From an uncultured Phocaeicola sp. (lineage in GTDB: Bacteria > Bacteroidota > Bacteroidia > Bacteroidales > Bacteroidaceae), in the NCBI GenBank assembly GCA_947626525.1, contig CANQSM010000030.1:1-34982 (forward strand): a stretch of 34,982 nt of DNA. Reading direction: 5' to 3'. The notes under the pieces are model-generated. The model saw only the letters and a list, made by a program, of their open reading frames with translations, was not told the DNA's origin and made no database searches. A program made the position numbers and the translations under genes. Of this stretch, positions 16,859 to 32,727 are shown piece by piece. Numbering within the stretch: position 1 is the first letter of the stretch; every line of letters starts with the position of its first letter.

Positions 16859-17024
16859 ATATGATGATTTTGTTCGATAGTTTCTATTCAAACAAGAAGG
16901 TCGGCATGGTTTCAGCAATAAGCCCATCTTTTAAATTCTGAATGAATACGAAAGACCTGTTCAACTTTGAATTTCAAACAGATAAATAAGTCACAAATGG
17001 AATTTTCATCAGAATGTATGTGCT

Positions 17025-18145
17025 TTAATCCGCATGATGAATATCGTGCAATATAAAAGATTTCAATTTCCTAAGTCCATATATGAAAGCAACAGGAAAG
17101 AATAATCCGCACAGCGTATAGACTATCAACAAGATTATATTATTCCCCAGTTTTGGAGTCATCAAATATTCCAATCCGCCGTCTACAACACCCAAGGCCA
17201 TCAACAGCATCGTACAAAGTTTGAAGCCAACGATATGCAATCCCATGATATAGAATGATTCCCTGCCACATACTTCCAATACTTTTCCGATACGCAGCTT
17301 TACCAGTTTCTTCGAGATAAAACATACGGCATAAAGTGCAGCCGTACATCCTACGGTAAGCTGCAATACATCTTTATATCCGTTGTGATTCATACCAATT
17401 GTGCCAATCAATAACGAAGATTCATACACAATCAATACGGCTGCTGCAAACAGATAAGGATTATCAAACTTCACTTTCAACCTGCCATGCAACTGCTGCC
17501 CAATGTATAACAATAACATTACCGATATGGCATTGCTGAATCGAGGTATCGTGATTCCATATACATTAGTCACCACACAGGAAACGGTTTGTAATACCAG
17601 TAATATAAGTGGGATGATGTACTCCCCCCCCCCCGTTTGCATTTATTAACAATATAACTGATAATACTATAGCCGCATAAAGCAAACAGCAAAGCATATA
17701 CAAACCACATCGCTCCCATTATCGGTTCACGTCCAGCACACAGCAAGGTCTTGATAATGCCTATCGCATATTCCTTCATATCCCATTCGGCAATCATTTT
17801 TTCTCCATATACTACGCCAGGCGAGTACCAGCTTAACTTGAAAAGCATGTTATGCAGCAGGGTGGCAGGCAGATAAATATAAAGAGCCGGCAAATAAAGC
17901 GACTTGAATTTTCCCTTGATGAAAGAAACAGGCTGCAACAACCGTTCGTCTTTCAAAAAGAATCCGCCAATCAAGAAGAATACCGGAACATGCCAGTACC
18001 ACCCCAGCATGGCACTGATATTGATAAACGAAAGTTTAGGATAAACAAAGTCTACGTGAAGTAAGACTACAGCTAAGATGGTAATGCCTTTGGCTATGTC
18101 GACATAGGCAGTACGGTTAGATACGTTTAATGATAGCGCATTCAT
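17025..18145 (-). pseudogene. acyltransferase family 3 membrane protein, frameshifted at a G11 tract (candidate phase-OFF state)
   Basis: The 5' part (from ATG 18145, MNALSLNVSNRTAYVDIAKG) and the 3' part (through the stop at 17025) are two halves of one acyltransferase_3/OafA-like integral membrane protein. They are broken by eleven G on the coding strand at 17624-17634. Upstream of the tract the frame reads NKCKRGGG and then runs into an unrelated 18-residue tail. Downstream, the other frame reads GGGEYIIPLILLVLQTV, a natural transmembrane continuation. With 9 or 12 G the two frames join. DIAKGITILAVVLLHVDFVYP carries the family's N-terminal helix with its His. Such proteins O-acylate surface glycans. 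A remote ATG at 18232 is less likely to be the start, since it would overlap the next gene. Because the only lesion is a long homopolymer, I read it as a reversible switch, not decay. Assembly error is the alternative. Confidence 0.88.
17624..17634 (-). repeat. poly-G (G11) tract inside acyltransferase gene
   Basis: Eleven consecutive C on the + strand are G11 on the coding strand. The tract sits mid-gene and sets the frame between the two halves of the acyltransferase. Lengths of 9 or 12 restore the full reading frame, while the present 11 does not. Confidence 0.95.
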
Positions 18146-18149
18146 ATTA
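18091..18149 (-). repeat. 59-bp segment duplicated at 19769-19827
   Basis: This 5' segment of the frameshifted acyltransferase gene (start codon plus first about 18 codons) recurs 1.7 kb away with four mismatches by my count. The two copies are direct repeats that flank the intact acyltransferase gene and the IS66 remnant. Confidence 0.85.
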
Positions 18150-18177
18150 GAGTGACTAATTGAAAAATGTTGCTCTG

Positions 18178-19164
18178 CTACAACACATACTTTTTCATAA
18201 ACGGAATCTTCATCAAGATGTATGTGCTGCACAAGGACAAGAGCGTGAATAGCAGGAAGAATGCCATGAAATGGTGAATCGGAACAACCAATTCTTCATC
18301 TATTTCCAGAAACTTATAAGCAAAATTGATAAATATAGGATGCATCAAGTAAATGCCAAAACAATAAGGTGCTAGTTTATTTGCCAACTTCCAGTTCACA
18401 TTCAACGACTTAAATAAAAGGAATAAAGCTGAAGCCAGACAGATTGCGACAGGTGTTGCATAACCGTAAACATTAAAACCATAATAGCATTTTGCGATAA
18501 TAATCCCTAAGCACAGAATGACGATTACGGCCAGAAGCATCTTGTTTCCACAAATCTTTTGCGGTGCTTTCCAACACAGCCAATATCCTAACATGTAAAT
18601 AAATAGATATGGAGTGGCAAAAATCATATAGCTTTTCAATTCAGCCCCGCAAGCATTCAAGGTGGGGAATAAAGATGAAAGCACGAACAGAAGTCCCAAT
18701 GCAACCAGCCAATCCTTGTCCGAAGCTTTTATGACAAACGGCTTAATAATAGGCGTAATCAGGTAAAGTCCTATCAGCATGTATAAATACCACATGTGTA
18801 CCCATGAATTTCCTGTAATGAAATGTATAATACTGTTAATTACCCCCCCCGATTTACTAAAATACGTTTCGATCAAACACATAGGTAAGCCGAATATCAG
18901 CAAAGCAAGTGCTATTCGTTTCACATATTTATGCCAAAACAAATTGAATCCCACTTCTTTTGCCGGATTAAGGAACAATGCACCCGAAATCATGATAAAG
19001 ATAGGAACGCCGAATTGCATGGTAAATTGATAACATGTCAATATAAAAAAATCATTGTTATCTGAAAAAGCTCTAGTCTCCCGTATCCCTGCACTAGTAT
19101 GCAGAAATACCACACTTAATGTTGCCAGTAAACGTAAACTGTTAAGATAATTAATTCTTTTCAT
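18178..19164 (-). CDS. acyltransferase family 3 (OafA/WecH-like) membrane protein
   Basis: This is a 328-residue polytopic membrane protein with about ten predicted helices. RINYLNSLRLLATLSVVFLH at the start matches acyltransferase_3 with the conserved His at the end of the first helix. FGVPIFIMISGALFL, WYLYMLIGLYLITPII and GIYLMHPIFIN are further family motifs. These proteins carry acyl groups (usually acetyl) across or at the inner membrane to polysaccharide hydroxyls. The codons for SGGV in a loop near residue 106 contain a G8 run, shorter than the others in the locus but of the same type. It starts downstream of the IS66 remnant and its stop lies 32 bp before the second acyltransferase. 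Confidence 0.92.
   Translation of the reverse strand: MKRINYLNSLRLLATLSVVFLHTSAGIRETRAFSDNNDFFILTCYQFTMQFGVPIFIMISGALFLNPAKEVGFNLFWHKYVKRIALALLIFGLPMCLIETYFSKSGGVINSIIHFITGNSWVHMWYLYMLIGLYLITPIIKPFVIKASDKDWLVALGLLFVLSSLFPTLNACGAELKSYMIFATPYLFIYMLGYWLCWKAPQKICGNKMLLAVIVILCLGIIIAKCYYGFNVYGYATPVAICLASALFLLFKSLNVNWKLANKLAPYCFGIYLMHPIFINFAYKFLEIDEELVVPIHHFMAFFLLFTLLSLCSTYILMKIPFMKKYVL
18843..18850 (-). repeat. poly-G (G8) tract inside intact acyltransferase gene
   Basis: Eight C on the + strand are G8 in the coding strand and encode part of SGGV. It is in frame at the present length. It is the shortest of four such tracts and the least likely to slip often. Confidence 0.85.
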
Positions 19165-19184
19165 GATTTGATGTAAGCACTCAA

Positions 19185-19228
19185 TTTAGGGCATCCCCCT
19201 TTGAAAGTGCACTTTTTAGTGCCCTAAA
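19185..19228. repeat. nested inverted repeat near the IS66 remnant
   Basis: TTTAGGGCA (19185-19193) and TGCCCTAAA (19220-19228) are perfect inverted arms. Between them AAAGTGCACTTT (19204-19215) is itself a palindrome. The element lies just upstream of the intact acyltransferase on the - strand, next to the transposase remnant. It could be an insertion-sequence edge, a terminator-like structure or a regulatory hairpin. The sequence alone does not decide. Confidence 0.6.
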
Positions 19229-19267
19229 CCGAGCTTTGTTAATTAATTAGTTTTGAATTTAACATTG

Positions 19268-19767
19268 TCAGGTAGCCAAAGTGATTTTGTCAGGAACCAT
19301 GTTGACATAATCCCTGCACTCGTTAAAGATATTTTTGAAAAAAGTTCCGATAAAGTTCCAGACAGAACTGCCGTGAAGCTTTACCGTTCCTATTACACTA
19401 TGATAAGTCGCAGCCATCTCAGCACCGGCATCACTACCATAATGCAGTGAATTGTTGCGTTGAGCAGTCAGTTTTCGAATGGTCCGCTCAGCGAGATTAT
19501 TGTCTATCGGGAGTTCACCGTCATCCAAGTACACAAAGATCTCTTTCCAGAATTGATTCAGATAATTAAGAGCTTCTGTATAATACCGACTTCTGAATTC
19601 TGAATCCTTTGACAGTTCACTGTCTAACAAGCTACGCAATTCTATCAGGAGTTCTTTCGTTTCCAGGCTTTGCCTTTCCCGTAACCTCTCTTTCGGGGTA
19701 AATCCGGCATCATCACATTTATGCTCCCTCATAAAGAATTCCTTTAAGATGTTGGAAAAGTGTTCAG
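19268..19767 (-). mobile_element. IS66-family transposase remnant (C-terminal part)
   Basis: The - strand encodes the C-terminal about 155-165 residues of an IS66 transposase. ELPIDNNLAERTIRKLTAQR, YGSDAGAEMAATYHSVIGTV and the final NECRDYVNMVPDKITLAT are diagnostic. The frame remains open upstream of the ATG at 19732 (AEHFSNILKEFF) to about 19767, where it abuts the acyltransferase fragment. The catalytic DDE N-terminal two-thirds and the accessory genes are missing, so the element is dead. It lies within the polysaccharide operon between GT2 and the acyltransferases, and it records an insertion followed by deletion. Confidence 0.9.
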
Positions 19768-19768
19768 C

Positions 19769-19827
19769 TGGCTATGTCGATATAGGCAGTACGGTTAGAT
19801 ACATTTAATGATAACGTATTCATATTT
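19769..19827 (-). pseudogene. 5' fragment of an acyltransferase gene (duplicate)
   Basis: This is a near-copy of 18091-18149 and would encode MNTLSLNVSNRTAYIDIA before meeting a stop at the junction with the IS66 remnant. It is the start of a second, lost copy of the acyltransferase whose body was removed when the IS66 element and its flanks rearranged. It is 12 bp downstream of the GT2 stop, the position expected for the next gene of the operon. Confidence 0.8.
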
Positions 19828-19839
19828 TTCCACGATTGT

Positions 19840-20910
19840 TTAAAGACCTCTCCCCGTCATTCTAAACAAGAGATTTTTGCAATGATGCAAAAAGTACAAT
19901 ATAAGCGAAGAACGTGTTCTTGCAGCCAAATAAAAAACTACTTCCACACGATTCAGATAGTGCATATTAATCTCGCTTATCGGTAAGCTATAAAACTCAT
20001 TCCTTAGCAACCTTTTAAACGAAGATAGCCTGAACCTCATGGGCTGCGGATTACGTGGATGGAAATATTTCATTTTCCCATAAACATAAATACTGTTTAG
20101 AACCTTTATGTTGAATGCGTCCATGAATATGTGTGGTTTATTTTCCTCTGTTATGAATCTATATAATTCTTGAAAAAACAATTCATAACTATGTTCGATA
20201 TTGTCAGTAAACTGTGAGAATCCTGAATGTATACTTTTTCTGTAATGATACAAATAGTTGTTTACATAACAGATTGAATGAGACCTTTCATAAGCGTAAA
20301 GATTAAAAGTATTATCCTCCATCCTACTCAATTTCGGATTGAATCTCAAATTGTACTTATCAATCAAAGACTTCTTATATATTTTTGCCCAAAGAGAACC
20401 AGAGTCGGCAGTGCATAAGTTATCCCTATAAATGTTGCCACATAGGAATTGCAATAGAAATCTGTCTTTGTCTTTACCACGGGCATAGATATAATCATCT
20501 TTAAAAAAAGGCTTCGCATCTTGACGGTACTGGTAGTTTACATAGGTCGAACATAGAATAATCTCCGCATCAGTCCGACTTGAATATTCCGCAAAAGAAC
20601 TTAAATATATCGGTTCTATCCAATCGTCAGGGTCAACAAAAACTATCCATTCGCCATTGCTGATGTCAAGACCTGAATTTCTTGCAGCCGCCACCCCTTC
20701 GTTAGTCTTATGAATGACGGTTATTCGAGAATCAGTAGATGCATATTTATCACAAAACACTCCGCAGTCATCAGGAGAGCCATCGTCAACTAATATCAAG
20801 GAAAAATCGCTGAAAGTTTGATTTAAGATACTATCTATGCATTGCTCCAAATATGGTATGGGTGTTTTATATATTGGAACAATAATGCTAAATATAGGAA
20901 TCCGTTTCAT
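19840..20910 (-). CDS. family 2 glycosyltransferase
   Basis: This is a 356-residue enzyme with a GT-A fold at the N-terminus. FSIIVPIYKTPIPYLEQCID is the usual start, LVDDGSPDD (41-48) binds the nucleotide, GVAAARNSGLD follows, and FVDPDDW (91-97) contains the metal-binding DxD. The C-terminal about 130 residues are less conserved and define the acceptor. It transfers a sugar from a nucleotide donor to the lipid-linked repeat unit at the inner membrane. Specificity is unknown. It starts 2 bp after the polymerase gene stop, so the two are tightly coupled. Confidence 0.94.
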   Translation of the reverse strand: MKRIPIFSIIVPIYKTPIPYLEQCIDSILNQTFSDFSLILVDDGSPDDCGVFCDKYASTDSRITVIHKTNEGVAAARNSGLDISNGEWIVFVDPDDWIEPIYLSSFAEYSSRTDAEIILCSTYVNYQYRQDAKPFFKDDYIYARGKDKDRFLLQFLCGNIYRDNLCTADSGSLWAKIYKKSLIDKYNLRFNPKLSRMEDNTFNLYAYERSHSICYVNNYLYHYRKSIHSGFSQFTDNIEHSYELFFQELYRFITEENKPHIFMDAFNIKVLNSIYVYGKMKYFHPRNPQPMRFRLSSFKRLLRNEFYSLPISEINMHYLNRVEVVFYLAARTRSSLILYFLHHCKNLLFRMTGRGL

Positions 20911-20912
20911 GA

Positions 20913-21968
20913 CTATTTAAATAAAATTGTTCTATATGGGTATACAGAAGAAGTTTCAATAGTGTCGATACTCCGCATATTTCTTGTTGCTTTGTGCTGA
21001 ATATAAATAGTAGATGAGAATAGCAATATAAGGATGACAGTCACAATACTTCTTTTCATTTTTAGGCATAACATCAATTGAGGAAAATACCCCAGTATTG
21101 CAATAAAAAAGTAGGTACATATTCTCATGGCCGTATGAGAGCTTATACTTAACACGTTTATAAAAAAACACCCTAAGCAGACACAACCGATATAATATTT
21201 GAAATTATCATCAGTTTTGGATAGCCTATTGTAAAATATTAGCGATAGAAATGTGAGCAGATAGACCAAGTCTTTAATTTTTCTACCTCCTTGAAAGAGG
21301 TCATCTCCCAATTCAATATACTGATGGAGTCTTACAAACAAGGTGATATCGTTAGGAAGAAATGTCAAAATCCTAAATACAAACATTTCTATTAGAAATG
21401 ACAATACAACGATTACCCATAGATATATCTTGTTGACTTTGTCCCATGGGATTAGAAACAAAATGCCGATAATTGCCGAGTTATGACACAGACTTGCCAC
21501 AACCAAACAAATAACGAACTTTAATGGACGATTCCTAAATCTGCATATACCCCAAAATAGCATGGCAATGGCCATAAATTGTCTAACGATACTTAGGGAG
21601 TTGGCAAAAAAGAAAGGAAAGCACACAAATAGGATCACACTTAAACTATAATTTTTAACATTCCCCTTGCACATGAATGCTATTCCATCGTTTATTAACC
21701 CGTAGATGAAAACCGATGTGAACAGGAAAAACAAATATGGATTTGTTTTACTTGTACAAATGCCTAAATATGTCGGTATAAGCTCAACCTCTCGAGAACT
21801 TGTTCCTTTGGCAAGTTCCCAATAAAAAAAATAGTCATAGCCTATGCCGTCCCGAATGGATGCGAAAATAACCAATAAAACAAATATTTTTATCTGCTTC
21901 GCTTTAATCGAACTGCCATCGAGTATAAAGAAGATGAGAAGAATAAAAAAAATCAGGTAGCCTATCAT
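20913..21968 (-). CDS. EpsG family polysaccharide polymerase (Wzy-type)
   Basis: This is a 351-residue polytopic membrane protein with about ten hydrophobic segments. IRDGIGYDYFFYWELAKGTS near residue 50 is the typical EpsG region (RxxxGxDYxxY), and SIVRQFMAIAMLFWGI matches the conserved helix with Arg-Gln. The protein matches the size and layout of Wzy-like polymerases that link undecaprenyl-linked repeat units in the periplasm. I chose ATG 21968 because it overlaps the TGA of the preceding GT4 gene as ATGA; the upstream ATG at 22010 would overlap by 46 bases. With the flippase upstream it defines a Wzx/Wzy-type pathway. Confidence 0.88.
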   Translation of the reverse strand: MIGYLIFFILLIFFILDGSSIKAKQIKIFVLLVIFASIRDGIGYDYFFYWELAKGTSSREVELIPTYLGICTSKTNPYLFFLFTSVFIYGLINDGIAFMCKGNVKNYSLSVILFVCFPFFFANSLSIVRQFMAIAMLFWGICRFRNRPLKFVICLVVASLCHNSAIIGILFLIPWDKVNKIYLWVIVVLSFLIEMFVFRILTFLPNDITLFVRLHQYIELGDDLFQGGRKIKDLVYLLTFLSLIFYNRLSKTDDNFKYYIGCVCLGCFFINVLSISSHTAMRICTYFFIAILGYFPQLMLCLKMKRSIVTVILILLFSSTIYIQHKATRNMRSIDTIETSSVYPYRTILFK

Positions 21969-22960
21969 ATATGGAGTTTCTTGTAACCACAAATCAATTT
22001 GTCTATACAAGTGTCAAGAGAAAATTCTCTCTGCACATATTGCATCAATATAGGTTGCATCTCTTTATCGCATAAGGCATGAATTATTTTTCCCCCTATA
22101 TCATCTATATCATAAGGATTGACAGTATATGCCATACCTCCATAATATTCTTTTGGCCCTCCTTTCTCCGTTATGACGATGTTGCAACCATAAACAGCGG
22201 CATCAAGTGCAACCATCCCTACACCTTCATTTATGCTTGGCAAGGCAAACACTTTTGCCTCGGCGTATAAAGTTTTAAGCCTTTCATCGCTCACTTTACC
22301 GAGGTATGTAATATTGTCAGTTGATTCTATCAATATCTTAAAGGGAGCAAATTTATCATGTTCTACACTACCGGCTAAAACCAAATTAAAATTGTACTTA
22401 ATAGCGGCTTGCATAAGCCTCATGACATTTTTGCGTTTTTGAGTCAAGATGCTTACGCTCAGACAAAAATTTTGTTTTGAAGGCATTGTATTTAGAGGGG
22501 TAAGCCTATAAGACAACGGCACAACCTCAATTTTCGAATATGGTTGAGAATAGCAATAGTGGACATATTCTGCTTCATACTTGCTTCTAACATAAATTTG
22601 TTTAATGAATTTCAATGCCATTCGAACATCATGATTATAACTGCTGAGCCTTAAATTTTTTATACCCCAATATGAAGCCAGTTTGTATTTCCATTTTGAT
22701 TGAATGGTATCAATTATGGGTGAAAACACTATGCTCGAATTTAACTTATAAGCATCTGCTGCAAATTTCAGAATAAACTCACAAGGGCCGATGATATGTA
22801 TGATGTCAAACTGATTCCATAAATATCTTTGCCACGGATTTATTTTAACCACCTTGTGACCTTTGGCTTCAAGTGCTTGTGCCCATGTTTCCGCTTGTAT
22901 TCTGATGCCATTAAATTCATCTAATGAGAAAGTCTCACTTATAACAAATGCAATATTCAT
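21965..22960 (-). CDS. family 4 glycosyltransferase (GT-B)
   Basis: This is a 331-residue cytosolic or membrane-associated glycosyltransferase. MNIAFVISETFSLDEFNGIRI and the following AQALEAKGHKVVKI form the N-terminal Rossmann half. LSVSILTQKRKNVMRLMQA begins the C-terminal half, and FALPSINEGVGMVALDAAVYGCNIVITEKGG contains the EGVG...D region that corresponds to the EX7E donor-binding motif, with Asp in place of the second Glu. That substitution may be tolerated. Its stop codon overlaps the polymerase start (ATGA). Donor sugar is unknown. Confidence 0.9.
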   Translation of the reverse strand: MNIAFVISETFSLDEFNGIRIQAETWAQALEAKGHKVVKINPWQRYLWNQFDIIHIIGPCEFILKFAADAYKLNSSIVFSPIIDTIQSKWKYKLASYWGIKNLRLSSYNHDVRMALKFIKQIYVRSKYEAEYVHYCYSQPYSKIEVVPLSYRLTPLNTMPSKQNFCLSVSILTQKRKNVMRLMQAAIKYNFNLVLAGSVEHDKFAPFKILIESTDNITYLGKVSDERLKTLYAEAKVFALPSINEGVGMVALDAAVYGCNIVITEKGGPKEYYGGMAYTVNPYDIDDIGGKIIHALCDKEMQPILMQYVQREFSLDTCIDKLICGYKKLHI

Positions 22961-22984
22961 AAGTTAATTCTTTATTCATATGTT

Positions 22985-24097
22985 TCATCCATTTTCTTCA
23001 AGTGCGGATTTTAGAGCATTAAGATAATCGTATTTATTCGACATATCTGGTTCAAGGAATGCCCCTTCACCCCATTCATTCCATGCTGTAAGGAATATAT
23101 ATTCTTTATTTTGAGCTTGACTAATCTTGATAAGTCTACTCATATATTTATGAAATTTTGAGGGTGTGGCACCTTTTATCAGTTTGCCTCGTGTTCCTCG
23201 TCTTGGCGTATCGTCATATGCGACAAAAGCACCTAATGAAATGTTTTTTGATTTTGCGTTTTTGGCTGACCTCAATATATTCCGCCATACACCGTCATAT
23301 GAGTATATTTCGAGAAACTTCATACCAGCTATCTGCATGGCTTTGTAAGCAATCTTGCGAATAGAAAAACGATTTCTCCAACTACAATGTAATGGTTCGT
23401 AAAAATATTGATGATAAGATTTTGGGATATGAAAATCAAAGACATGATGAAAGATGAAATGTATGCCATCAAATCCATATTTTTTGGCCAGACTATCCCA
23501 ACAATCCATCATTGGTTCCAATTCTTTACTATAATTGTAAATTCCAAAAACAGGACGATTATTAATTTTTATATGCCTACAATCATTGAAATACGGAAGG
23601 AGATAATTGAAATGCCTTGCCCAGTCTGTTTCTGTTCCTAAGATATAGGGGATAAGTACAGCTTTTCCTTTGTGGGTTTTCTCCTTGTCCCCCTCAAAAA
23701 AGGGTGCCCAATCGTTTCCCGGAATATTACTCCAACTACGTGCCCAATTACCATTATCCCAAATATAAAAATAATTTATGTCTATATCTTTATTGTCTAA
23801 AATAATTTGTGCCGGTTTCGTAAGAATATTCTTATCACTATTGAACCAATAATGATAAATGCCGAAACCATAAACACCATATTTCTTAGCTAACTCAGTC
23901 TGCCATTTAACATTTTCTTTCTTTGATAGGTCGTAATAATTATTATCTAGAGGAACCTTTGGTTGGTCATGTCCTTCATATAAGGACTTAGCTTTCTTTA
24001 CAGTTACCCAATCTGTGAACCCCTCACCCCAGAACTCATTATTTTCGGGTATCTCATGAAACTGAGGTAGATACATTGCTATTATTTTTGTCTTCAT
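22985..24097 (-). CDS. WbsX-family glycan protein (putative glycosyltransferase, GH99-like fold)
   Basis: This is a 370-residue protein that begins KIIAMYLPQFHEIPENNEFWG, the clear signature of the WbsX family, followed by FTDWVTVKKA, GFGIYHYWF, and near the C-terminus FLTAWNEWGEGAFLEPD. No signal peptide is present, so it acts in the cytosol. The family is found in O-antigen and capsule clusters and is annotated as glycosyltransferase. Its fold resembles GH99-type TIM barrels, so the chemistry is less certain than for the GT2 and GT4 genes. It follows the KAS III gene on the - strand after an 82-bp gap that shows no promoter. Confidence 0.88.
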   Translation of the reverse strand: MKTKIIAMYLPQFHEIPENNEFWGEGFTDWVTVKKAKSLYEGHDQPKVPLDNNYYDLSKKENVKWQTELAKKYGVYGFGIYHYWFNSDKNILTKPAQIILDNKDIDINYFYIWDNGNWARSWSNIPGNDWAPFFEGDKEKTHKGKAVLIPYILGTETDWARHFNYLLPYFNDCRHIKINNRPVFGIYNYSKELEPMMDCWDSLAKKYGFDGIHFIFHHVFDFHIPKSYHQYFYEPLHCSWRNRFSIRKIAYKAMQIAGMKFLEIYSYDGVWRNILRSAKNAKSKNISLGAFVAYDDTPRRGTRGKLIKGATPSKFHKYMSRLIKISQAQNKEYIFLTAWNEWGEGAFLEPDMSNKYDYLNALKSALEENG

Positions 24098-24179
24098 GTT
24101 TCCTCTATTTTAACAAATGCGGCGTACTTATGCATTAATTGGAGGCTTACATTCATTGTTCATACTATTTGAATGAAAA

Positions 24180-25238
24180 CTATATTTCCACGATTTCGCT
24201 GATGTGACAATCAACGAAAGGAACGATTGCCGTAGCCCATGTCATGCCAACGCCGAAAGCACTTAGCATCAACCGTTTTTCTCCCTGCATACAATCTCGC
24301 AGACAATCCGCTATGGTCAGCGGAATCGACACCGACGAGGTGTTGCCGTATTTGTGTATTGTCGAGGGTATGCGCAAGGTATCGAGTTTTAATTTTCTGG
24401 CAATGTAACTGTTGATGAAATTGTTTGCCTGATGAAAAACATACCAGTCCATATCCTCGATGCGTTCGCCGGAGGCTGCAAACAACCGCTTTATGTCTTT
24501 GGGGATTTCGCCAATTACAAAGTTGAAGACATCGCTGCCTTTCATATATCCCTGCTCGTCGCTGCGGATGTTTCCGTACTCATCGACCACCTTTTCCCGC
24601 AGTGTCTCCTCGCTGCTCGGATGGCGGTAACCGCCTCCGGGTATCATTATCAGGTCGCCTCGCGAGCCGTCGCTGTTCATCGAAAACCAACTCGTTCCGA
24701 ATCTCTCGTTCCTCTCAATCAACGCCGCAATTCCTCCGTCACCGAAGATGAATGCCGAGTGCCGGTCTTTTGGGGAATAAACTTTCGAGCGTGTTTCGCC
24801 GTCGAGCAACAAGGCTTTTCGCAGTCCGCACCGCTCCATGAAAGCATACATGACGCTCAATCCGTATATGAAACCGGAACAACCCAGATTGATATCGAAT
24901 GCCATCGTACTTGACGGCAAACCCAACCGCGATTGCAACAGAATGGAAGTAGCCGGCATGCGATAATCAGGAGTTTGCGACACGAACACCAATAAATCTA
25001 TCTCGTCGCGGGATATGCCGTTGTCTTCAATCAGCCGTTCCGCCGCCGCTTGGCACAAATCCGATGAACAAGTGGAAGCATCGGCAAAGCGCCGTTCATA
25101 GATACCGATTTTGTCGACCACTTTGCGGACATCTTCTTCCGGAAAATATTGCGTATAACGGTAATTGTCGATTACCTGTTTCGGAACACAGCCCGCCAAT
25201 GCCGTAATTCCGACTTGCGAATATTTAATGATTGCCAT
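24180..25238 (-). CDS. 3-oxoacyl-ACP synthase III family protein (KAS III, copy 1)
   Basis: This is a 352-residue thiolase-fold condensing enzyme. The catalytic triad of the FabH family is complete: Cys120 in NLGCSGF, His269 in VFHQAN and Asn299 in YGNTSS. FVSQTPDYRMPATS and FGDGGIAALIE are typical. FabH enzymes condense an acyl-CoA with malonyl-ACP to start acyl chains. At 352 residues it is longer than housekeeping FabH (about 317) and belongs to the sub-branch seen in secondary acyl clusters. It starts 16 bp after the SDR stop. With the ACP, SDR and second KAS III it forms a dedicated acyl-synthesis set inside the capsule locus. It has no homopolymer tract. Confidence 0.93.
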   Translation of the reverse strand: MAIIKYSQVGITALAGCVPKQVIDNYRYTQYFPEEDVRKVVDKIGIYERRFADASTCSSDLCQAAAERLIEDNGISRDEIDLLVFVSQTPDYRMPATSILLQSRLGLPSSTMAFDINLGCSGFIYGLSVMYAFMERCGLRKALLLDGETRSKVYSPKDRHSAFIFGDGGIAALIERNERFGTSWFSMNSDGSRGDLIMIPGGGYRHPSSEETLREKVVDEYGNIRSDEQGYMKGSDVFNFVIGEIPKDIKRLFAASGERIEDMDWYVFHQANNFINSYIARKLKLDTLRIPSTIHKYGNTSSVSIPLTIADCLRDCMQGEKRLMLSAFGVGMTWATAIVPFVDCHISEIVEI

Positions 25239-25254
25239 TTTTGATTAATTGTTA

Positions 25255-26016
25255 TCATTCTGATTTAGGGTCACAAGATTCCCCCCCCCCATCAATAACG
25301 ACGCTTGTTCCTGTAACCCAGCAACTTGCGCTGGATAATAAGTATATAACGCCCCATGCTATGTCGTTTGGATGCCCGAATCTCTTGAGCGGATATTTTG
25401 CCAAATACCGATCTAACTGTTCTTCGGATATGGTTCCCCTGTGAATCAACGGAGTTTCTACCATACCGGGAATAATGCTGTTCACCCGGACTTTTCTCAC
25501 CGAGAATTCATGAGCGCAATACTGCATAAACGAATTCAACGCCGCTTTGGAAGTTCCGTAAATACCGTTGCCGTAGTTGAACGAATATATACCTCCGATG
25601 GAAGCGATAAAGACCAACGAGGATTCAGATTTCAGAATTTTTTTCTTGTACAGCAATCGGGTCGTCTCTACGGGTGAAAAGAAATTCGTGTTGAAAATTC
25701 TGTCGAATTTTTCTCGTGTGGAAAACTGGACGGGCAGGGTCAGTCCGATACCGGCGCAAAGGGCGGCGCCGTCAAGCGGCGGAAGTTGCCCGACCAACGA
25801 CTCGATACCCTCCTGCCCGGAGAGGTCGGCAATCACCCGCCGATGGCCTTCTCCTTCGAGGGCATCGAAAGTCTCTTGCAGCCGTTCGGAATTACGACCC
25901 GTAATGACTACCGTCGCGCCCATTTTGGAACACTCGATGGCAGTGGCGCGTCCGATGCCCGATGACGCACCCGTTACGAGGACAGTCTTGCCCTCCAATG
26001 AAAATGGATTATACAT
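25255..26016 (-). CDS. short-chain dehydrogenase/reductase, FabG-like ketoreductase
   Basis: This is a 253-residue classical SDR. The NAD(P) loop TGASSGIG (15-22) is intact, TGRNSE follows strand 2 and suggests NADPH preference, and the catalytic residues are Ser139 (FIASIGG), Tyr153 and Lys157 (YGTSK). The C-terminus has VTGTSVVIDGG as in FabG-type proteins. The likely role is reduction of a 3-ketoacyl-ACP made by the neighbouring KAS III enzymes, with no dehydratase or enoyl reductase nearby, so the product would be a 3-hydroxyacyl-ACP. A G10 tract at 25281-25290 encodes the final glycines. Slippage there would only replace the last 9 residues, so it changes the tail, not the active site. 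Confidence 0.92.
   Translation of the reverse strand: MYNPFSLEGKTVLVTGASSGIGRATAIECSKMGATVVITGRNSERLQETFDALEGEGHRRVIADLSGQEGIESLVGQLPPLDGAALCAGIGLTLPVQFSTREKFDRIFNTNFFSPVETTRLLYKKKILKSESSLVFIASIGGIYSFNYGNGIYGTSKAALNSFMQYCAHEFSVRKVRVNSIIPGMVETPLIHRGTISEEQLDRYLAKYPLKRFGHPNDIAWGVIYLLSSASCWVTGTSVVIDGGGESCDPKSE
25281..25290 (-). repeat. poly-G (G10) tract at the 3' end of the SDR gene
   Basis: Ten C on the + strand are G10 in the coding strand and encode the GGG after Asp in VVIDGGG. The present length gives the tail ESCDPKSE. With 11 G the protein would end GIL soon after, and with 9 G it would read NLVTLNQNDNN and stop nearer to the next gene's ATG. Confidence 0.92.
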
Positions 26017-26030
26017 AGTATTATTATTCT

Positions 26031-27074
26031 TTATTTACATTCAACCAAATCCGAAATTACGATATGGTCGGTCGCAAACGCCACCGTTCCCCACGACAGC
26101 CCGACACCGAATCCGCAGCAGACAAACTTCGTCGAACGCTCTTCTACCTTCCCTTTCAACTGCGTGACAATCGTCAGCGGTATTGATGCAGACGAGGTAT
26201 TGCCGAACCGGTACATGCACGACGGGACTTTCGCCTCGTCCAGTTTCAGTTTCTTGACAATCAGGTTGTTCATTTTCATGTTTGCCTGATGGAAGACATA
26301 ATAATCCGCCGTCTGATAGTCGAATCCGAAATGCTCCGCCAGTTTCCTGACCGATTTGGGGGCTGTCGATATGCCGAAGGCAAAAACGTCCATGCCTTTC
26401 ATACGGGTTTGCAGCCGATTGTATCGGCGCCCGTCGATGACCTCCTCCTTGAATGATTCCAGGGTTATTTGGTTCCTCGCACCACCGTCGGGAATCATGA
26501 TGGCATCGTATCCGCTGCCGTCTGTACCGAAATGGAAACGGAAACCTTCAGCTCCTTCCTGATATTCAAGCGCTGTTGCCGTACCGGCGTGTCCGAACAG
26601 CGGGTCATTGAAAGGTACGCGCCGTTTGGCGTCTCCGCACAATAGCAAGGCTTTTCGGATATGCCCGTTCTGAAAGAGCGACACCGCACTGCTCAATCCG
26701 TAGACCCAGCCCGAGCAGCCCAAAGGAATATCTATGGCGTAGCATTCGGTAGAGAGGTGTAAGCGATTTTGCAGGATACACGCCGTTGCCGGAACAATAT
26801 AATCGGCATACTGCGATACGAAAATCAACGCATCGATTTCCGACTTCTCCCATTCCAAATCGGAAATCAATCGTTCGGCGGCATCATAACATAAATCGGA
26901 GGTGGTATGCGTTTCATCATAACGGCGCTCCAAAACGCCCGTTGTCTTCACAAAGTCTTCTTCGCTATAGTCTTGCGATATTACCCCCCCCCCCCTCAAA
27001 TTGCTGACGATGGTGGCGGGTACACCGGCAGAAAAGCCGGCGACCCGCACATTCCGAAATTCCAAAAATGCCAT
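26031..27074 (-). CDS. 3-oxoacyl-ACP synthase III family protein (KAS III, copy 2), with G12 tract
   Basis: This is a 347-residue KAS III with a complete triad: Cys120 (PLGCSGW), His262 (VFHQAN) and Asn292 (FGNTSS). It is clearly a paralogue of the KAS III 0.8 kb downstream (same length up to Cys120, shared GVxERRYxx and FVSQxxDY motifs), probably an old duplication with divided function. The G12 tract at 26984-26995 encodes part of LRGGGV at residues 26-31, an insertion relative to the usual N-terminus. At 12 G the gene is in frame and ON, whereas 11 or 13 would stop translation early. It starts 3 bp after the ACP stop, so the two are co-translated. Confidence 0.93.
   Translation of the reverse strand: MAFLEFRNVRVAGFSAGVPATIVSNLRGGGVISQDYSEEDFVKTTGVLERRYDETHTTSDLCYDAAERLISDLEWEKSEIDALIFVSQYADYIVPATACILQNRLHLSTECYAIDIPLGCSGWVYGLSSAVSLFQNGHIRKALLLCGDAKRRVPFNDPLFGHAGTATALEYQEGAEGFRFHFGTDGSGYDAIMIPDGGARNQITLESFKEEVIDGRRYNRLQTRMKGMDVFAFGISTAPKSVRKLAEHFGFDYQTADYYVFHQANMKMNNLIVKKLKLDEAKVPSCMYRFGNTSSASIPLTIVTQLKGKVEERSTKFVCCGFGVGLSWGTVAFATDHIVISDLVECK
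26984..26995 (-). repeat. poly-G (G12) tract near the 5' end of the KAS III gene
   Basis: Twelve C on the + strand are G12 in the coding strand at codons 27-31. It is the longest homopolymer in the window. Its position near the start means that a one-base change would abolish the enzyme, so it is the best placed on/off switch of the four tracts. Confidence 0.95.
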
Positions 27075-27077
27075 AGT

Positions 27078-27308
27078 TTACATCTTGCTTTGAACGGCCT
27101 TGAACAAATCCTCGATGGTTTCAGCTTTGCGGATATCATCGCCTTTGAGGGTAACATCGTACTCCTCATCGACCATGGCGATAACCGACAGTGCCGTCAG
27201 CGACGACCACTCGTCCAAATCGTGAAAACGGGTCGCAGGGTTAAATACACTCGCATCGGTATCTTCAAACTGCGATGCAAAATTCTCGATAAATTCTTTC
27301 AGTTCCAT
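27078..27308 (-). CDS. acyl carrier protein
   Basis: This is a 76-residue acidic four-helix protein. DEWSSLTAL around residues 32-40 is the phosphopantetheine site, with Ser36 as the likely attachment residue (WSSL replaces the usual DSL). The following IAMVDEEYDVTLKGDDI matches helix III of ACPs. It is a specialised ACP separate from the housekeeping AcpP, encoded between the hexapeptide acyltransferase and the KAS III genes. It probably carries the acyl group made by the cassette and presents it to an acyltransferase. It needs a phosphopantetheinyl transferase from elsewhere in the genome. Confidence 0.92.
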   Translation of the reverse strand: MELKEFIENFASQFEDTDASVFNPATRFHDLDEWSSLTALSVIAMVDEEYDVTLKGDDIRKAETIEDLFKAVQSKM

Positions 27309-27418
27309 AATGATTTGTAATTAATGGTTTATTTGTAACTATATCATAATCAATAATCCGTGTCATTTATGTGCGTTGGAATCCGGATTCATGACAAAAT
27401 CTGAGCCGTCATCCAGTT

Positions 27419-28216
27419 TCAACATCTATTTTTCAAGAAGGAAATAATCTCCTTTCTCCGCTCCAAATAATATTTCCGATAATTTCGCTCCAGCTTCTCC
27501 ATGGGGATTCTTTGTTCGGGAGGATATATCTTCGCCTCTTGTTCGTATATTTCTTCCGGAGTATATACGAATCCGACCACTTTTGTCGGATTTCCGACGA
27601 CAATCGAATAGGGAGGCACCGACTGTCTGACAACAGAAGCTGCGCCTATGACGCTTCCTCTACCGACCGTCACATTGGGCAGAACACAGGAATGTTCCCC
27701 TATCCATATATTGTCCTCGATTATTACCGGTCCTTGCGAAAAAAGACGTTTTGCCCCGACCCGGCAGTTAAATTCATCGGTGTCGCCATATCCATGCGAG
27801 TTGTCGGTTATTAGTATGAAATCCCCCATACCCACATTATTGCCTATGACAATCTTGTTTATTGCCGTAATATGGGAATAGGCACCGATACTGCAACAAT
27901 CACCAATCCTGATTTCCGGATGGAACGTTTGAGAATTATACTTATCCCATGCCGTCAATTTGGTTTTTTCACGGAAAACGCATCTTGAACCGACGGTTAT
28001 GTATCTGGCTCCGAGAAGATGCCGAAATGAGGGCTCAAATCTGGTTCCCTTGCCGACTGCCCTAAAACCGCTCTGTATGTAGCCGGTATAAACCGCCCTG
28101 TAAATCGACCGAGATATATCCGCAATCTTAAAAGGATGCAGAAAACTGTATAGGATGACTCCGGATAAACGCAAAAAGCCCTTTAATAATTTCTTCATAG
28201 TTGCTAAGATATTCAT
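27419..28216 (-). CDS. left-handed beta-helix (hexapeptide) acyltransferase
   Basis: This is a 265-residue protein. After an amphipathic N-terminal part, residues about 70-225 show hexapeptide repeats ([49 protein letters not shown]) ending in [12 protein letters not shown], the WbbJ/LacA-type signature. DNSHGYGD near 137-144 contains the catalytic His. These enzymes O- or N-acylate sugars, normally from acetyl-CoA. Here the gene is directly upstream of an ACP and KAS III set, so an ACP-borne acyl donor is a reasonable alternative. It starts the acyl module in transcription order and is followed by a 110-bp gap before the ACP. Confidence 0.9.
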
Positions 28217-28303
28217 TCCTTAATAAGTGTTTGATTATCATAATTCGATGGCCGAACGAATTGTCTTAATTGTCTTGAGCACTAAAATATATAGACGACT
28301 ACC

Positions 28304-29812
28304 TTATTGACGTTTGTGCGACAATAACGAAGCATAATATACAAACTCGTTTGTTTTTCGGAAAAACAAAACAAAGGTCGTTACAAGCAAAATAGAAATC
28401 AGTATTCCTTTTGCTATAAAATGCACCCAATTATCTACATAGACATATCGGGATATCCCATAACACAAGATTAAAAGTATTATAAAAAAGAATATATAGG
28501 GTATGTTAAATACCCAAAATTCTTTGGATGTTTTCTTGAAACCATAACGATACAACATGAGTGGCTCTATCCATAACGACACCAATCCACACCCTAATAC
28601 CGTTCCGATAAGAACACCGGCGAACCCCCATATTTTAACTAAGGCTAGCGATAATCCTAAATTGATAATACATTCAAATATCCCTTTATATCGATCGTAA
28701 CGAAAAATTCCTAAAACATTGCGTGTAATCAGTGTGGGGTATCGGAATATAGATATGCAGAAATCCATTATTATTAACGTGACGACCACTATCGACGCTT
28801 CGTATTCTTTTCCATATACCAGATTAATGAAATCATTAAACAAGCACAATAGATTAACGCCAAAAAAAAGTATTATGAAGTGTGTCAGGAATAATATCCG
28901 CTTGAACATTATCAGCTGCTGTTCTATGTTTTTTTTATCGGATATATAATTTCCTAAGGTCGATGTAATGGAAGAGAAGCCATTAAGCAAAAAACTTCGA
29001 AGGGCGAATACAATAGATGTATAGTTCGTATAAATTCCTACCCAAACCAATCCTAAGAATTTAGATATGATAATATTGTCCGTTCCAGAAAATACGATTC
29101 CGCTTACATTATTAATAAAAAGAGCCTTGGCATTTCCTTTTATTTTTGTTTTAGTCTCTTTATCTAATTCCGGGGTTGAAGGAGACGGTCTAAACAGTTG
29201 ATTTGATTTTATAATGATAACGGCGTTATTTATTAAAGTCGCAAGAAGCATAATTCCGATAAACAATATATAATTACGGGTAAAGTAAAGTACAATAAGC
29301 TGTATGAGTATTTGTGTAATTTTAATACCGCTACTATAAATATTCAGAAGATATTCTTTTTGAGCTACAACTATTAACGATTTTTTATCGGCTACGAAAT
29401 ATGGCGAAATAAAATTGGCCAGAAAAATCAAATATATAATTGTGATATTGTCTATCTCATTGGCATCTTTAATGGCATATGGAATGAGAGGTATAAATCC
29501 TATACCACAAAATAACATAACACCAATGACACGCAAATAGATTTTCTTAAAGTATAGAACAATCGATGCAAGTTTTGATGTATCAGATTCAGCCATAGGC
29601 TTGTACATTACTTGCACAAGCGCATAGCTGAATCCCATTTCTGCAATTGAAAACAGAAATAAAATATTAGCAAACAACCCATTGATACCCAAATATTCCA
29701 CACCCAAGATTTGGATGATCATTATGCGCGTTGCCACATTGAAGAATAATTCCAATATGCGGCTTCCACTTGCTGTCAGTGTATTGAATATGGAATTCCG
29801 TAATCGACCCAA
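28304..29812 (-). CDS. Wzx-type polysaccharide flippase (MOP superfamily)
   Basis: This is a 502-residue integral membrane protein with about 12-14 hydrophobic helices. RILELFFNVATRIMIIQILGVEYLGINGLFANILFLFSI at the start (positions about 18-56) and AEMGFSYALVQVMYKPMAES are the usual polysaccharide-transporter (Polysacc_synt) features. It moves the lipid-linked repeat unit across the inner membrane for the EpsG-type polymerase. The codon use is AT-rich compared with the acyl module that follows. It lies 51 bp after the SIS gene, and its stop is 87 bp before the hexapeptide acyltransferase. Confidence 0.92.
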   Translation of the reverse strand: MGRLRNSIFNTLTASGSRILELFFNVATRIMIIQILGVEYLGINGLFANILFLFSIAEMGFSYALVQVMYKPMAESDTSKLASIVLYFKKIYLRVIGVMLFCGIGFIPLIPYAIKDANEIDNITIIYLIFLANFISPYFVADKKSLIVVAQKEYLLNIYSSGIKITQILIQLIVLYFTRNYILFIGIMLLATLINNAVIIIKSNQLFRPSPSTPELDKETKTKIKGNAKALFINNVSGIVFSGTDNIIISKFLGLVWVGIYTNYTSIVFALRSFLLNGFSSITSTLGNYISDKKNIEQQLIMFKRILFLTHFIILFFGVNLLCLFNDFINLVYGKEYEASIVVVTLIIMDFCISIFRYPTLITRNVLGIFRYDRYKGIFECIINLGLSLALVKIWGFAGVLIGTVLGCGLVSLWIEPLMLYRYGFKKTSKEFWVFNIPYIFFFIILLILCYGISRYVYVDNWVHFIAKGILISILLVTTFVLFFRKTNEFVYYASLLSHKRQ

Positions 29813-29863: not shown

Positions 29864-30436
29864 CTACTCTAAATTTGCATGATATTGCCAAAGGCCTTTA
29901 AGGTCAATCGCCCTTTTATCGATAATTATTTTTGCCAAAATATCGCCAACCAATAACAGCGATTGCTCAAATAAAGTGGTCATTGGTTGGCAGGAATCGA
30001 TTTCATCTTTCAAATACAGTTTTGTCCGAACGGGAATCCGAACCATATAATCGGCAATACTTTCCATATCCCCATGTGGATTAGAGCCGATATGTACAAC
30101 TTTTGCATTAAAAGTTTTTGCTTTTCTCCCAATGGCGACAGGGAACAACGACATTCCGCTTCCGGAGCCGACAATCAGCAAATCATTTGCTGTAATGGCT
30201 GGCTCACAGACATCACCGACACAGTGGGCATCGATACCTAGATGGCTCATTCGTTTTGCAATGGATTGGAGCGCCATTTCCACACGCCCCACCCCCACAA
30301 AGAAAACTTTTTCCGCCGTGAATAAATCTTCAGATAACCGTTCTAAGGCTTTGACATCAACACTTTCTAATGTCCTGGAAAGCTCCCTCAATACTTCAGA
30401 GCGACACACTGTGTATTTTTCTTCAAATGTTTCCAT
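29864..30436 (-). CDS. SIS-domain sugar-phosphate isomerase (6-phospho-3-hexuloisomerase-like)
   Basis: This is a 190-residue single SIS-domain protein. KVFFVGVGRVEMALQSIAKR, then GSGSGMSLFP and VHIGSNPHGDM, match the HxlB/PHI group more than GmhA or KdsD. PHI isomerises hexulose-6-phosphate and fructose-6-phosphate. I chose ATG 30436 (METFEEKY), 7 bp after the stop of the Rpe-like gene; an earlier in-frame ATG would overlap it. Its pairing with an Rpe-like epimerase, a nucleotidyltransferase-kinase and a HAD phosphatase points to synthesis of a ketose- or uncommon sugar-nucleotide for the polysaccharide, not to the ribulose monophosphate pathway. Confidence 0.85.
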   Translation of the reverse strand: METFEEKYTVCRSEVLRELSRTLESVDVKALERLSEDLFTAEKVFFVGVGRVEMALQSIAKRMSHLGIDAHCVGDVCEPAITANDLLIVGSGSGMSLFPVAIGRKAKTFNAKVVHIGSNPHGDMESIADYMVRIPVRTKLYLKDEIDSCQPMTTLFEQSLLLVGDILAKIIIDKRAIDLKGLWQYHANLE

Positions 30437-30443
30437 AAATGAA

Positions 30444-31142
30444 TCAGATAATATGATTGCGAATTTCAAATAGTCTGGCGGCAGAGCCCTTTATGTCTTG
30501 TCGTGACAGACATGTCGTTCCACATACAAAGATATCCACTACTCCGGCTCCATAGCATTCGATATTTTTTTGCGAAATCCTCCCGTCTATTTCTATTTTT
30601 GTTTGCAGGCCTCTTTTGTCAATCATTTCGCGCAACCCCCTAATTTTTCGGTCTGCATAATCAACCTGTGCCTCTTTTGCGCTCGAGGCATATCCGGGAT
30701 TGATAAGCATCAATAAAACAGTATCACACTTATCAAGAATATATTCTACTGTCGATAAAGGGGTTGAAGGCTTTAATGCCACACCGGATCTTACTCCGGC
30801 TGCATGAATTTTATTGGTTAAGCCATCAATATGCGAGGCCGTTTCAGCATGAAATACTATTTGTTGGACTCCGATATTCAACAGTTCATCGACATAGTAA
30901 TCCATTCCTTCTGTCATCAGATGGCAATCAAATTCGAGATTTGTGATATTTCTTAGCTGTTTTACAACCTCGAACCCAAGAGGCATTGAGGGACTAAAAT
31001 GCCCGTCCAGAATATCTATGTGAAGCATTTTTATTCCTGCGTTTTCGATTTGTCGTATCTGATCTTCAAGGTGTAAGAAATCAAGACAAATCAGAGATGG
31101 AGAAAACACACATTTCTCATTCCAAATTTCTTTCATATCCAT
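30444..31142 (-). CDS. ribulose-phosphate 3-epimerase-like protein
   Basis: This is a 232-residue TIM-barrel enzyme. FSPSLICLDF, MLHIDILDGHFSPSMPLGF (metal ligands His and Asp), FDCHLM and VLLMLINPGYA are the Rpe family motifs in order, and KIEIDGRIS plus VDIFVCGTTCL close the barrel. Rpe interconverts ribulose- and xylulose-5-phosphate, and relatives (AlsE) act on allulose-6-phosphate. In the capsule locus it is a second, specialised copy; a housekeeping rpe is expected elsewhere. It overlaps the end of the nucleotidyltransferase-kinase gene by 26 bases, so the two are translationally coupled. Confidence 0.9.
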   Translation of the reverse strand: MDMKEIWNEKCVFSPSLICLDFLHLEDQIRQIENAGIKMLHIDILDGHFSPSMPLGFEVVKQLRNITNLEFDCHLMTEGMDYYVDELLNIGVQQIVFHAETASHIDGLTNKIHAAGVRSGVALKPSTPLSTVEYILDKCDTVLLMLINPGYASSAKEAQVDYADRKIRGLREMIDKRGLQTKIEIDGRISQKNIECYGAGVVDIFVCGTTCLSRQDIKGSAARLFEIRNHII

Positions 31143-32712
31143 ATTCTTTAAGATTGTTATAAAGCATTTCTTTCCCTAACGCATACAAAACCAAGCTATA
31201 AGGGTATTCATGGAGACCACAGATATTTAAAAATATAAGTGCTGCCATGAGTTTGGTTTTCCTATCATCGAATCCGTTTTCTTTGAGCCATTTATAGTAA
31301 AACGCTTCACATTGTACAAGTATGTGTTTTCGATTAAAATCATATCTTATTGTATTTCCTTGCCACGAAACTTCAAAGAGATTTTTTGCCACCAACTCAT
31401 GACACATGATAAGTCCGTGCAGCATTTTCCCTAAATCGTAGTATATGTCGCCAACCGAAATAGATTTGTCAAAACTCTGTCTCCAGTCTAAGAAACAGAA
31501 TGTATTCTTTTCTTTATCGTATAGGATATTCTCAAAATGAAAATCTCCATGAAATTGTCCCGGCATTCCATCTGCAACATATTCCCAGTCCACGCTGTCA
31601 AGCATGAATTGCAAGGTGGGATATTTTTTATCATTAATTATCGTGACAGCATCCGTTTTATTAAAATTCTTATAAAAAAGTTGAACACGTTCGTAGGTTT
31701 TATCTTTATAGAATTTCATGCATGAACGATGAAACTCTTTTTCCCCGTCTTCTGTCAAATCAGCCAACGTCCAGAAATGCTTCGAATAATCAAGAAGTTT
31801 TGAAAATACCGGCAAAGTAACACACTTTGACATCACATCGCCATTTACATAGGCGTAACTATACATGTGTTTTGTATGCCCCATTATCTTGGGGACAAAA
31901 CTTTCGAGCAAGGAGGCTCTCCTTACCCTGTTTGCTATAAAGCTTGTATTATCGGAAAATTTTATTACCCTGTCGTTCAAAAACCATATCGTTTCATCTG
32001 CTTTGGGTAAAATGTTGGGATCTCCACTTTGGTGATATCTTTTTTGTGTTGCTTCCAGTTCCACCGTTATTCCCGTATCAAACCAGGTGAATTTTTGTGC
32101 CGAGATCCCATGTGGAAGAAGTTGCCGTAGCCCAAGTGCTTCGCCCTCCATAATCGCTTGTTCCCGATGATTTTCCATCGCATTCCAAAACGATTTATAA
32201 TCATGTATGCCTGCCAATCCGATATATGGCTCGGGGGAAGTCCCTAAATTTTTCCCCTTTTCGTTGATTTGCCAGACTTTACTTTCCGATGTAAAAGAAA
32301 TCGTTCTATATTGGGATAAATTATCTCTGGAATCGTACCCCATCCAATTATGATCAGGTGCTGGAATATGCTCCGTTACCAATGTATCACAAGAACAGAA
32401 TATGAACGGCTCTTGAAGGTACTTTTCACAACACAACATAGTGAAACCCAAACCGGAACCAGGACCTTCATAAGGATAGACATCGACCAAAGTAATATCC
32501 TTTTCCGGATGGGCGAGGGATAGATATTCGCGAACAAGCTCGCCTTTATAACCCAGACCCATCACAAATTTTGTATCCTCAGGGAACATCTCAAAGATAC
32601 GGGTTATGGTAGGTTTGTTGCCAATGCTTACCAATGATTTGTTTAGATATTTTGTAATGCCTCCAAGTCTTGAACCTGTTCCGGCTGTTGGAATAAAAAC
32701 AGTATATGACAT
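31117..32712 (-). CDS. bifunctional nucleotidyltransferase / APH-like kinase
   Basis: This is a 531-residue fusion. The N-terminal about 240 residues are a nucleotidyltransferase (VFIPTAGTGSRLGGITKYLNKSL is the GxGxRL...K signature; FIFCSCDTLV carries the metal-binding Asp). The C-terminal about 290 residues are a phosphotransferase of the APH/choline-kinase fold (QFHGDFHFENILYD is the catalytic HGDxxxxN, and FLDWRQSF supplies the DFG-like Asp). Such fusions activate a sugar or alditol by phosphorylation and then transfer a nucleotide. The substrate is unknown. It is adjacent to the Rpe-like, SIS and KdsC-like genes and overlaps the Rpe-like gene, forming one module. Both active sites appear complete. 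Confidence 0.9.
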   Translation of the reverse strand: MSYTVFIPTAGTGSRLGGITKYLNKSLVSIGNKPTITRIFEMFPEDTKFVMGLGYKGELVREYLSLAHPEKDITLVDVYPYEGPGSGLGFTMLCCEKYLQEPFIFCSCDTLVTEHIPAPDHNWMGYDSRDNLSQYRTISFTSESKVWQINEKGKNLGTSPEPYIGLAGIHDYKSFWNAMENHREQAIMEGEALGLRQLLPHGISAQKFTWFDTGITVELEATQKRYHQSGDPNILPKADETIWFLNDRVIKFSDNTSFIANRVRRASLLESFVPKIMGHTKHMYSYAYVNGDVMSKCVTLPVFSKLLDYSKHFWTLADLTEDGEKEFHRSCMKFYKDKTYERVQLFYKNFNKTDAVTIINDKKYPTLQFMLDSVDWEYVADGMPGQFHGDFHFENILYDKEKNTFCFLDWRQSFDKSISVGDIYYDLGKMLHGLIMCHELVAKNLFEVSWQGNTIRYDFNRKHILVQCEAFYYKWLKENGFDDRKTKLMAALIFLNICGLHEYPYSLVLYALGKEMLYNNLKEYGYERNLE

Positions 32713-32727
32713 TTCTACTAATATAAA

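Follow-up and report, generated by a model that had tools for sequence, protein, structure and literature searches.

Poly-G tracts in acyl-modification and receptor genes of an uncultured Phocaeicola are probable slippage switches of its surface

The window analysed here, a 34,982-nucleotide (nt) stretch from an uncultured Phocaeicola sp. (assembly GCA_947626525.1, contig CANQSM010000030.1, positions 1 to 34,982), is contig 30 in a genome of 3.77 Mb (G000) and carries on its minus strand a polysaccharide locus in which four acyl-related genes contain long poly-G tracts. In the order of that strand, on which all genes of the locus described below lie, it comprises an acyl carrier protein (ACP)-like open reading frame (ORF), the KAS III gene KS1 (with a G12 tract), a short-chain dehydrogenase/reductase (SDR) gene (G10), a second KAS III gene (KS2), sugar-transfer and EpsG-type polymerase genes, and the acyltransferase-3 genes A (G8) and B (G11). 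The locus may begin beyond the contig end. Read on the plus strand, the tracts are C12 at 26984-26995, C10 at 25281-25290, C8 at 18843-18850 and C11 at 17624-17634, and are thus runs of G on the strand of the polysaccharide genes. A reading made from the letters alone (the sequence-only reading) had named these as the only G/C runs of at least eight in the 35 kb and had placed all four in acyl-related genes; the coordinates are exact and the gene assignments (two PF01757 proteins, an SDR and a KAS III) stand. It overlooked that the gene with the G11 is frame-broken at its tract and that 57 further tracts lie outside the window.

KS1 (26031..27074, 347 amino acids (aa), FabH-like; PF08541/PF08545, with the NCBIfam KAS III models below cut-off) is in frame across its G12, which lies after codon 26 and is followed by an out-of-frame TAA. 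The other frames meet a stop after 0 or 5 codons, truncating the product at about 30-36 residues. Acyltransferase-3 A (18178..19164, 328 aa; PF01757, E = 6.3e-35, nearly the whole profile) is also in frame; its G8 comes after codon 104, again with an out-of-frame TAA behind it, and the other frames stop after 0 or 1 codon. The SDR gene (25255..26016, 253 aa, 3-oxoacyl reductase-like; PF13561, E = 2.8e-45) is in frame as well, and its G10 covers the codons of a C-terminal DGG within the last eleven codons; in the other frames a stop comes 2 or 11 codons later, and the tail alone would be altered. Acyltransferase-3 B consists of two ORFs in different frames whose junction is the G11, an N-terminal part (17570..18232; PF01757 profile positions 2-150) and a C-terminal part (17025..17642) with no Pfam match by itself. 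Both parts are matched in one frame in the homologues L162 and L163 (24-29% identity), therefore intact distant relatives of acyltransferase B exist; another homologue (L160, 79%) matches the C-terminal part only. A unit change in tract length alters the product in KS1 and acyltransferase A by a stop within 0-5 codons and in the SDR in the tail only, and acyltransferase B is split. These in-frame and broken states, like all those given below, rest on homopolymer lengths as assembled.

The ACP-like ORF (27078..27308, 76 aa; PF00550 at its cut-off) opens an ACP-KS1-SDR-KS2 cassette that ends with the tract-free KS2 (24180..25238; PF08541/PF08545). This combination of an ACP, an SDR reductase and a pair of KAS III enzymes suggests that the cassette makes a short hydroxy-acyl-ACP for a sugar. 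The acyl group could be transferred by the product of a tract-free hexapeptide acyl/acetyl transferase gene (27419..28216; PF00132, WbbJ-type models below cut-off) or by the acyltransferase-3 enzymes.

In the full-window run count, 86 G/C runs have length 4 and 17 have length 5, none has length 6 or 7, and the only longer ones are the four tracts of 8, 10, 11 and 12. With independent bases, 24.7 runs of at least eight G are expected in the genome, or about 0.2 per 35 kb. We detected 61 such tracts, 50 of them of at least nine. Because this genome-wide density is itself high (0.57 tracts expected per window), the cluster of four is moderately unusual within a genome already rich in tracts (P for at least four = 0.0027, about 0.29 such windows in the genome). 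In the 404 kb around the tracts we counted 159 runs of G5, 15 of G6, 1 of G7, 11 of G8, 28 of G9, 16 of G10, 4 of G11 and 2 of G12; the sample consists of loci selected for tracts, although its counts from G8 upwards are whole-genome counts. The length spectrum is thus two-humped, nearly empty at G6-G7 and with its maximum at G9, and the tracts are both longer and commoner than chance. By our own sorting, 25 of the 61 tracts lie in one open frame, 11 lie where two frames meet and 25 are other or unclear, so both states occur, across different genes.

Pieces of the same family meet at the tract in an acyltransferase gene (L039), a pgpA-like gene (L040) and a channel gene (L083), the second L039 piece and the first L083 piece being below the Pfam cut-off. 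The ion-channel gene (contig 168, L083 245-990) is split at a G10 into two PF00520 pieces, the shorter of which is the one below cut-off. The pgpA-like gene (contig 11, L040 3757-4264) is also split at a G10, with both pieces matching PF04608, and its counterpart in the same-genus genome G123 is one open frame without even a G6 run. PgpA was considered as a broken core gene and ruled out as core, with a match in only two of 15 genus genomes and none in 13. Three contigs of the assembly (7, 9 and 12; bases 641-710) each begin 640-700 bases from a tract.

The sequence directly behind the tracts is also distinctive. TA comes next in 30 of the 61 and TAA in 20, against 8.7% and 2.3% after G3-5 runs of the same DNA. 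The bias is directional: in nine genus genomes, this one included, TA follows 129 of 208 tracts of at least nine G while the mirrored AT precedes 26, and outside the genus the figures are 245 and 110 of 689. In the genome studied here TA was found behind 24 of the 36 tracts sorted as coding and behind 6 of the 25 elsewhere. A stop placed directly behind the tract in one of the three frames would give a tight off state, an explanation that does not cover the six TA tracts outside the coding set.

TonB-dependent receptor genes are the largest class of tract bearers (15 of the 61 tracts, by blast cluster); L031 and L032 have confirmed Plug and CarboxypepD_reg domains, L038, truncated at a contig end, has the N-terminal domains without Plug, and the others are assigned by similarity. 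Among 44 Plug matches in the genome, 14 are in a tract-bearing gene (2.3 expected for 3.2-kb genes). Of the eight acyltransferase-3 genes over cut-off, six carry a tract (A and B of the window and genes on contigs C10, C12, C82 and C89; 0.14 expected for 1.1-kb genes), while one more gene, below cut-off on C144, is tract-free. Three of the six tracts touch or lie inside the PF01757 match, and the other three are 19-47 nt beyond it. None of the 24 GT2 glycosyltransferase matches in the genome has a tract, the nearest being 1.7 kb off (Fisher P = 3e-5 for acyltransferase-3 versus GT2 and 0.001 for Plug versus GT2). Tracts were also found in two AlgX/SGNH-type genes (L079 and L085, the Pfam cut-off being reached by L085 only) and a hexapeptide transferase gene (L081), and acyl-related genes, KS1 and SDR included, account for 11 of the 61. 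Other bearers are a TAGT glycosyltransferase (L056), a cytosine methylase (L054), an AraC-type regulator (L044), a FecR (L059) and the channel (L083). Targets are surface or interaction genes, with exceptions such as the PgpA-like gene.

The sequence-only reading had proposed a slippage-based contingency layer on acyl genes of one locus. The contingency anatomy and the bias towards acyl genes (six of eight acyltransferase-3 against none of 24 GT2) hold, while confinement to acyl decoration or to one locus does not, with 61 tracts and 15 of them in receptors. Restriction of the tracts to acyl genes is ruled out genome-wide by the receptors, methylase, regulator, FecR, TAGT and channel genes. 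The reading had proposed comparing runs of at least eight G elsewhere in the genome: such runs are present in other genes, and the gene set is non-random. Its further idea that the tracts alter decoration and not whole-capsule expression proved too narrow: receptors, a GT4 gene in a relative's locus (L200) and the leader of a NusG/UpxY-like gene (L058) bear tracts as well. This last tract, a G11 at L058 3995-4005 (contig 38), stands 21 nt before TACTTTTG and 214 nt upstream of a NusG-family gene that we take to be UpxY-like, and through slippage it might switch an entire polysaccharide locus. The motif TAnnTTTG, the Bacteroides -7 consensus, is at the identical 21-nt distance from the tract in L033 and L058. 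As a general claim, promoter-type tracts were rejected, since TAnnTTTG within 40 nt was found five times against 1.9 expected, which is too weak.

Taken together, it is highly likely that the tracts are homopolymer contingency loci, and the roughly sixty of them probably turn surface sugars and nutrient receptors on and off at random. We infer that DNA polymerase slips reversibly on G8-G12, so that a G would be added or dropped in daughter cells at a rate far above that of ordinary mutation. KS1 and acyltransferase A would be true on/off switches because a stop codon 0-5 codons behind the tract follows any frame change, acyltransferase B would be in the off state in the present assembly, and the SDR tract would swap the last residues only, which may modulate the enzyme or have little effect. 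The acyl groups on this polysaccharide would then vary from cell to cell within a clone, and the same device across the genome would switch TonB-dependent receptors and other acyltransferases.

Alternatively, acyltransferase B may be a plain pseudogene, or its frame break a homopolymer error of the assembly, with the other window tracts stable, which we consider unlikely. Its homologue in G123 (L161; 50% and 39% to the two parts) is likewise broken near the same place and has no long tract there, and assemblies are error-prone at homopolymers. Against this, each part of B keeps an open frame of about 200 codons that no other stop interrupts, and by our sorting five of the six tract-bearing acyltransferase-3 genes are broken at the tract, yet 13 of the 15 receptors are in frame (P = 0.006). 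In this count, the C tract of the C89 acyltransferase lies near its start and was read from the sequence, and the verdicts for C12 and C82 rest on a profile match ending near the tract.

The number of tracts of at least nine G differs greatly among close relatives. Fifteen genus genomes have 50, 17, 15, 9, 12, 6, 1, 6, 11, 0, 11, 16, 8, 34 and 57, and 142 sampled genomes of the family outside the genus have a median of 4 and at most 26. Such differences, and tracts in genes without a visible surface role (pgpA-like L040), would suit a neutral origin of the tracts, as by-products of a mutation bias towards long G runs peculiar to the lineage, with the broken genes as ordinary decay. This explanation is improbable: the acyltransferase-3, Plug and GT2 counts are far from random, the near absence of G6-G7 is unexpected from a plain bias, and TAA stands right behind the tract about a third of the time instead of at its 2.3% background. 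Programmed transcriptional or ribosomal slippage, by which split genes would still yield some full protein, is very improbable. In its favour, polymerase and ribosome can slip on G runs, and a TAA or TAG directly after the tract would define two products; against it, 25 of the 36 tracts sorted as coding lie inside one open frame, where such slippage would just waste product, and tract lengths range from 8 to 12.

Two other genus genomes also carry tracts at acyltransferase-3 loci: G094 in two of three examined (four matches) and G123 in three of five, two of these only G8. G094 also has a 16.8-kb polysaccharide locus (L200, contig 9, 128000-144805) with seven G/C tracts of 9-11, located in a GT4 gene, an AMP-binding gene, two acyltransferase-3 genes, a hexapeptide gene and an unassigned, apparently split gene, with one outside the listed ORFs.

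We also followed the window tracts in 43 related loci found with KS1, most of them from Bacteroidales metagenome-assembled genomes (MAGs) and a small number under the labels Kiritimatiellae or Thermoguttaceae, the nearest named record being a Bacteroides MAG. An ACP match is present in 42 of the 43 and an SDR match in all; the KS2 match in all 43 carries little information, as the KS2 query also matches KS1, and a separate KS2 gene is present in L086 and L096. The SDR C-terminus is reached in 41 of 43 homologues, and its G10 is found again only in L086, a rabbit Bacteroides MAG with an 84% identical SDR, while the other 40 have no tract (longest G run 5). The KS1 tract is missing in all 42 homologues with an available N-terminus, where the site is a loop of variable length. 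Barring two independent origins, the SDR tract thus appears to predate the KS1 tract, because it is shared with L086 whereas the KS1 run is missing throughout. L086 has tracts of its own, in frame in ATP-grasp and Fe-ADH genes, and an aldo/keto reductase gene split at a C8. In L096, a Prevotella MAG, an acyltransferase-3 gene directly behind the KS cassette is split at a G10. In L100, a G9 at 18080-18088 is followed by TAACT and, at a distance of 8 nt, by a weak tblastn match (22%, E = 5e-6) to acyltransferase A, where our home-made profile has no match.

Several observations weigh against reading the tracts as contingency loci. With one assembly per species no length variation was seen; a single assembly is unable to reveal reversibility, and nothing in it is less dependable than the length of a homopolymer. 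A simple on/off role is ruled out for the SDR tract, genes without an evident surface role such as the pgpA-like one also bear tracts, and the KS1 tract has no counterpart in its nearest homologue, L086. Eleven of the twelve acyltransferase-3 genes detected in the homologue loci with the home-made profile have no tract. Within the genus the distribution is uneven (0-57 tracts of at least nine G), and in the twelve other genus genomes none of 22 examined acyltransferase-3 loci (of 32 matches) has a run of at least eight G. Finally, the G8-only tracts (11 of the 61) may be partly chance, and ten of the eleven, acyltransferase A being the exception, lack the TA typical of longer tracts.

Slippage contingency is a mechanism already known in other bacteria. 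Campylobacter jejuni NCTC11168 has 29 phase-variable poly-G/C loci with tracts of seven or more (PMC4965091); as here, G tracts are spread over the genome, many are in surface glycan genes, and on/off states depend on frame, whereas the phylum differs and in our genome TonB-dependent receptors are the largest class among 61 tracts of at least eight. Poly-G tracts switch two haemoglobin receptors, HmbR and HpuAB, in Neisseria (PMC3786947), receptors of the TonB-dependent type (PMC3352162); the likeness lies in poly-G within TonB-dependent receptor genes, but 15 tracts are in SusC/TonB-like genes here. In E. coli K1, slippage alters acylation of a capsule that is itself kept, through the heteropolymeric repeat of a single O-acetyltransferase gene (as told in PMC3090145), and the same 2010 source raises slippage as a possibility for capsule acetyltransferases of Bacteroides fragilis. 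The Akkermansia muciniphila cps1 acyltransferase gene amuc_2098 has long mononucleotide repeats at its end for which slippage was suggested, while the capsule switch actually shown is an invertible region (PMC13343947); this is likewise a capsule acyltransferase of a gut commensal, but of another phylum and mentioned for one gene. A replication-slippage on/off switch of the pilus in another gut commensal, Bifidobacterium breve (PMC9187656), concerns two pilus clusters in a Gram-positive.

For Bacteroides, the mechanism named in a 2025 review is inversion, at invertible capsule promoters (PMC11868660), which also varies surface polysaccharides at random but by site-specific DNA inversion and at the level of whole-locus expression. 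Judged by titles and the beginnings of abstracts, none of the open-licence papers among the matches listed describes a poly-G phasome in Bacteroidaceae, and these searches gave no account of the extent or the targets of the mechanism in this family. We lean, by a small margin, towards a Bacteroidaceae genus, probably of gut commensals, whose large phasome is driven by slippage independently of DNA inversion; in it, TA/TAA-capped G8-G12 tracts would each switch nutrient receptors and the acyl decoration of surface sugars independently and give many combinatorial surface states per clone. Some sixty tracts of the slippage type in one Bacteroidaceae genome would bear directly on the inversion-centred view of Bacteroides variation. 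If they switch as proposed, receptor and acyltransferase genes may be mistaken for pseudogenes in assemblies, and a single clone can be heterogeneous in its phage, antibody and glycan-uptake phenotypes.

A pattern scan of viral contigs gave no match to the flanks of the KS1 tract, and megablast of 17000-28300 found no homologue among phage records. An IS66 transposase remnant (19268..19732, minus strand; PF03050 positions 187-283 of 284) is placed between a GT2 gene and acyltransferase A, next to the latter; the single 590-base match (88.9%) that the same search returned from plasmid and phage records, to a Bacteroides uniformis plasmid, falls by its coordinates at this remnant. The ORF at 28304-29812 has no Pfam or NCBIfam match, and calling it flippase-like is a guess from its position and appearance. 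At 29864-33258, consecutive genes for an epimerase, a SIS protein, a HAD phosphatase and a nucleotidyltransferase-like protein with an APH-like C-terminal part, some of whose family matches are below cut-off, may form an unusual sugar-nucleotide pathway.

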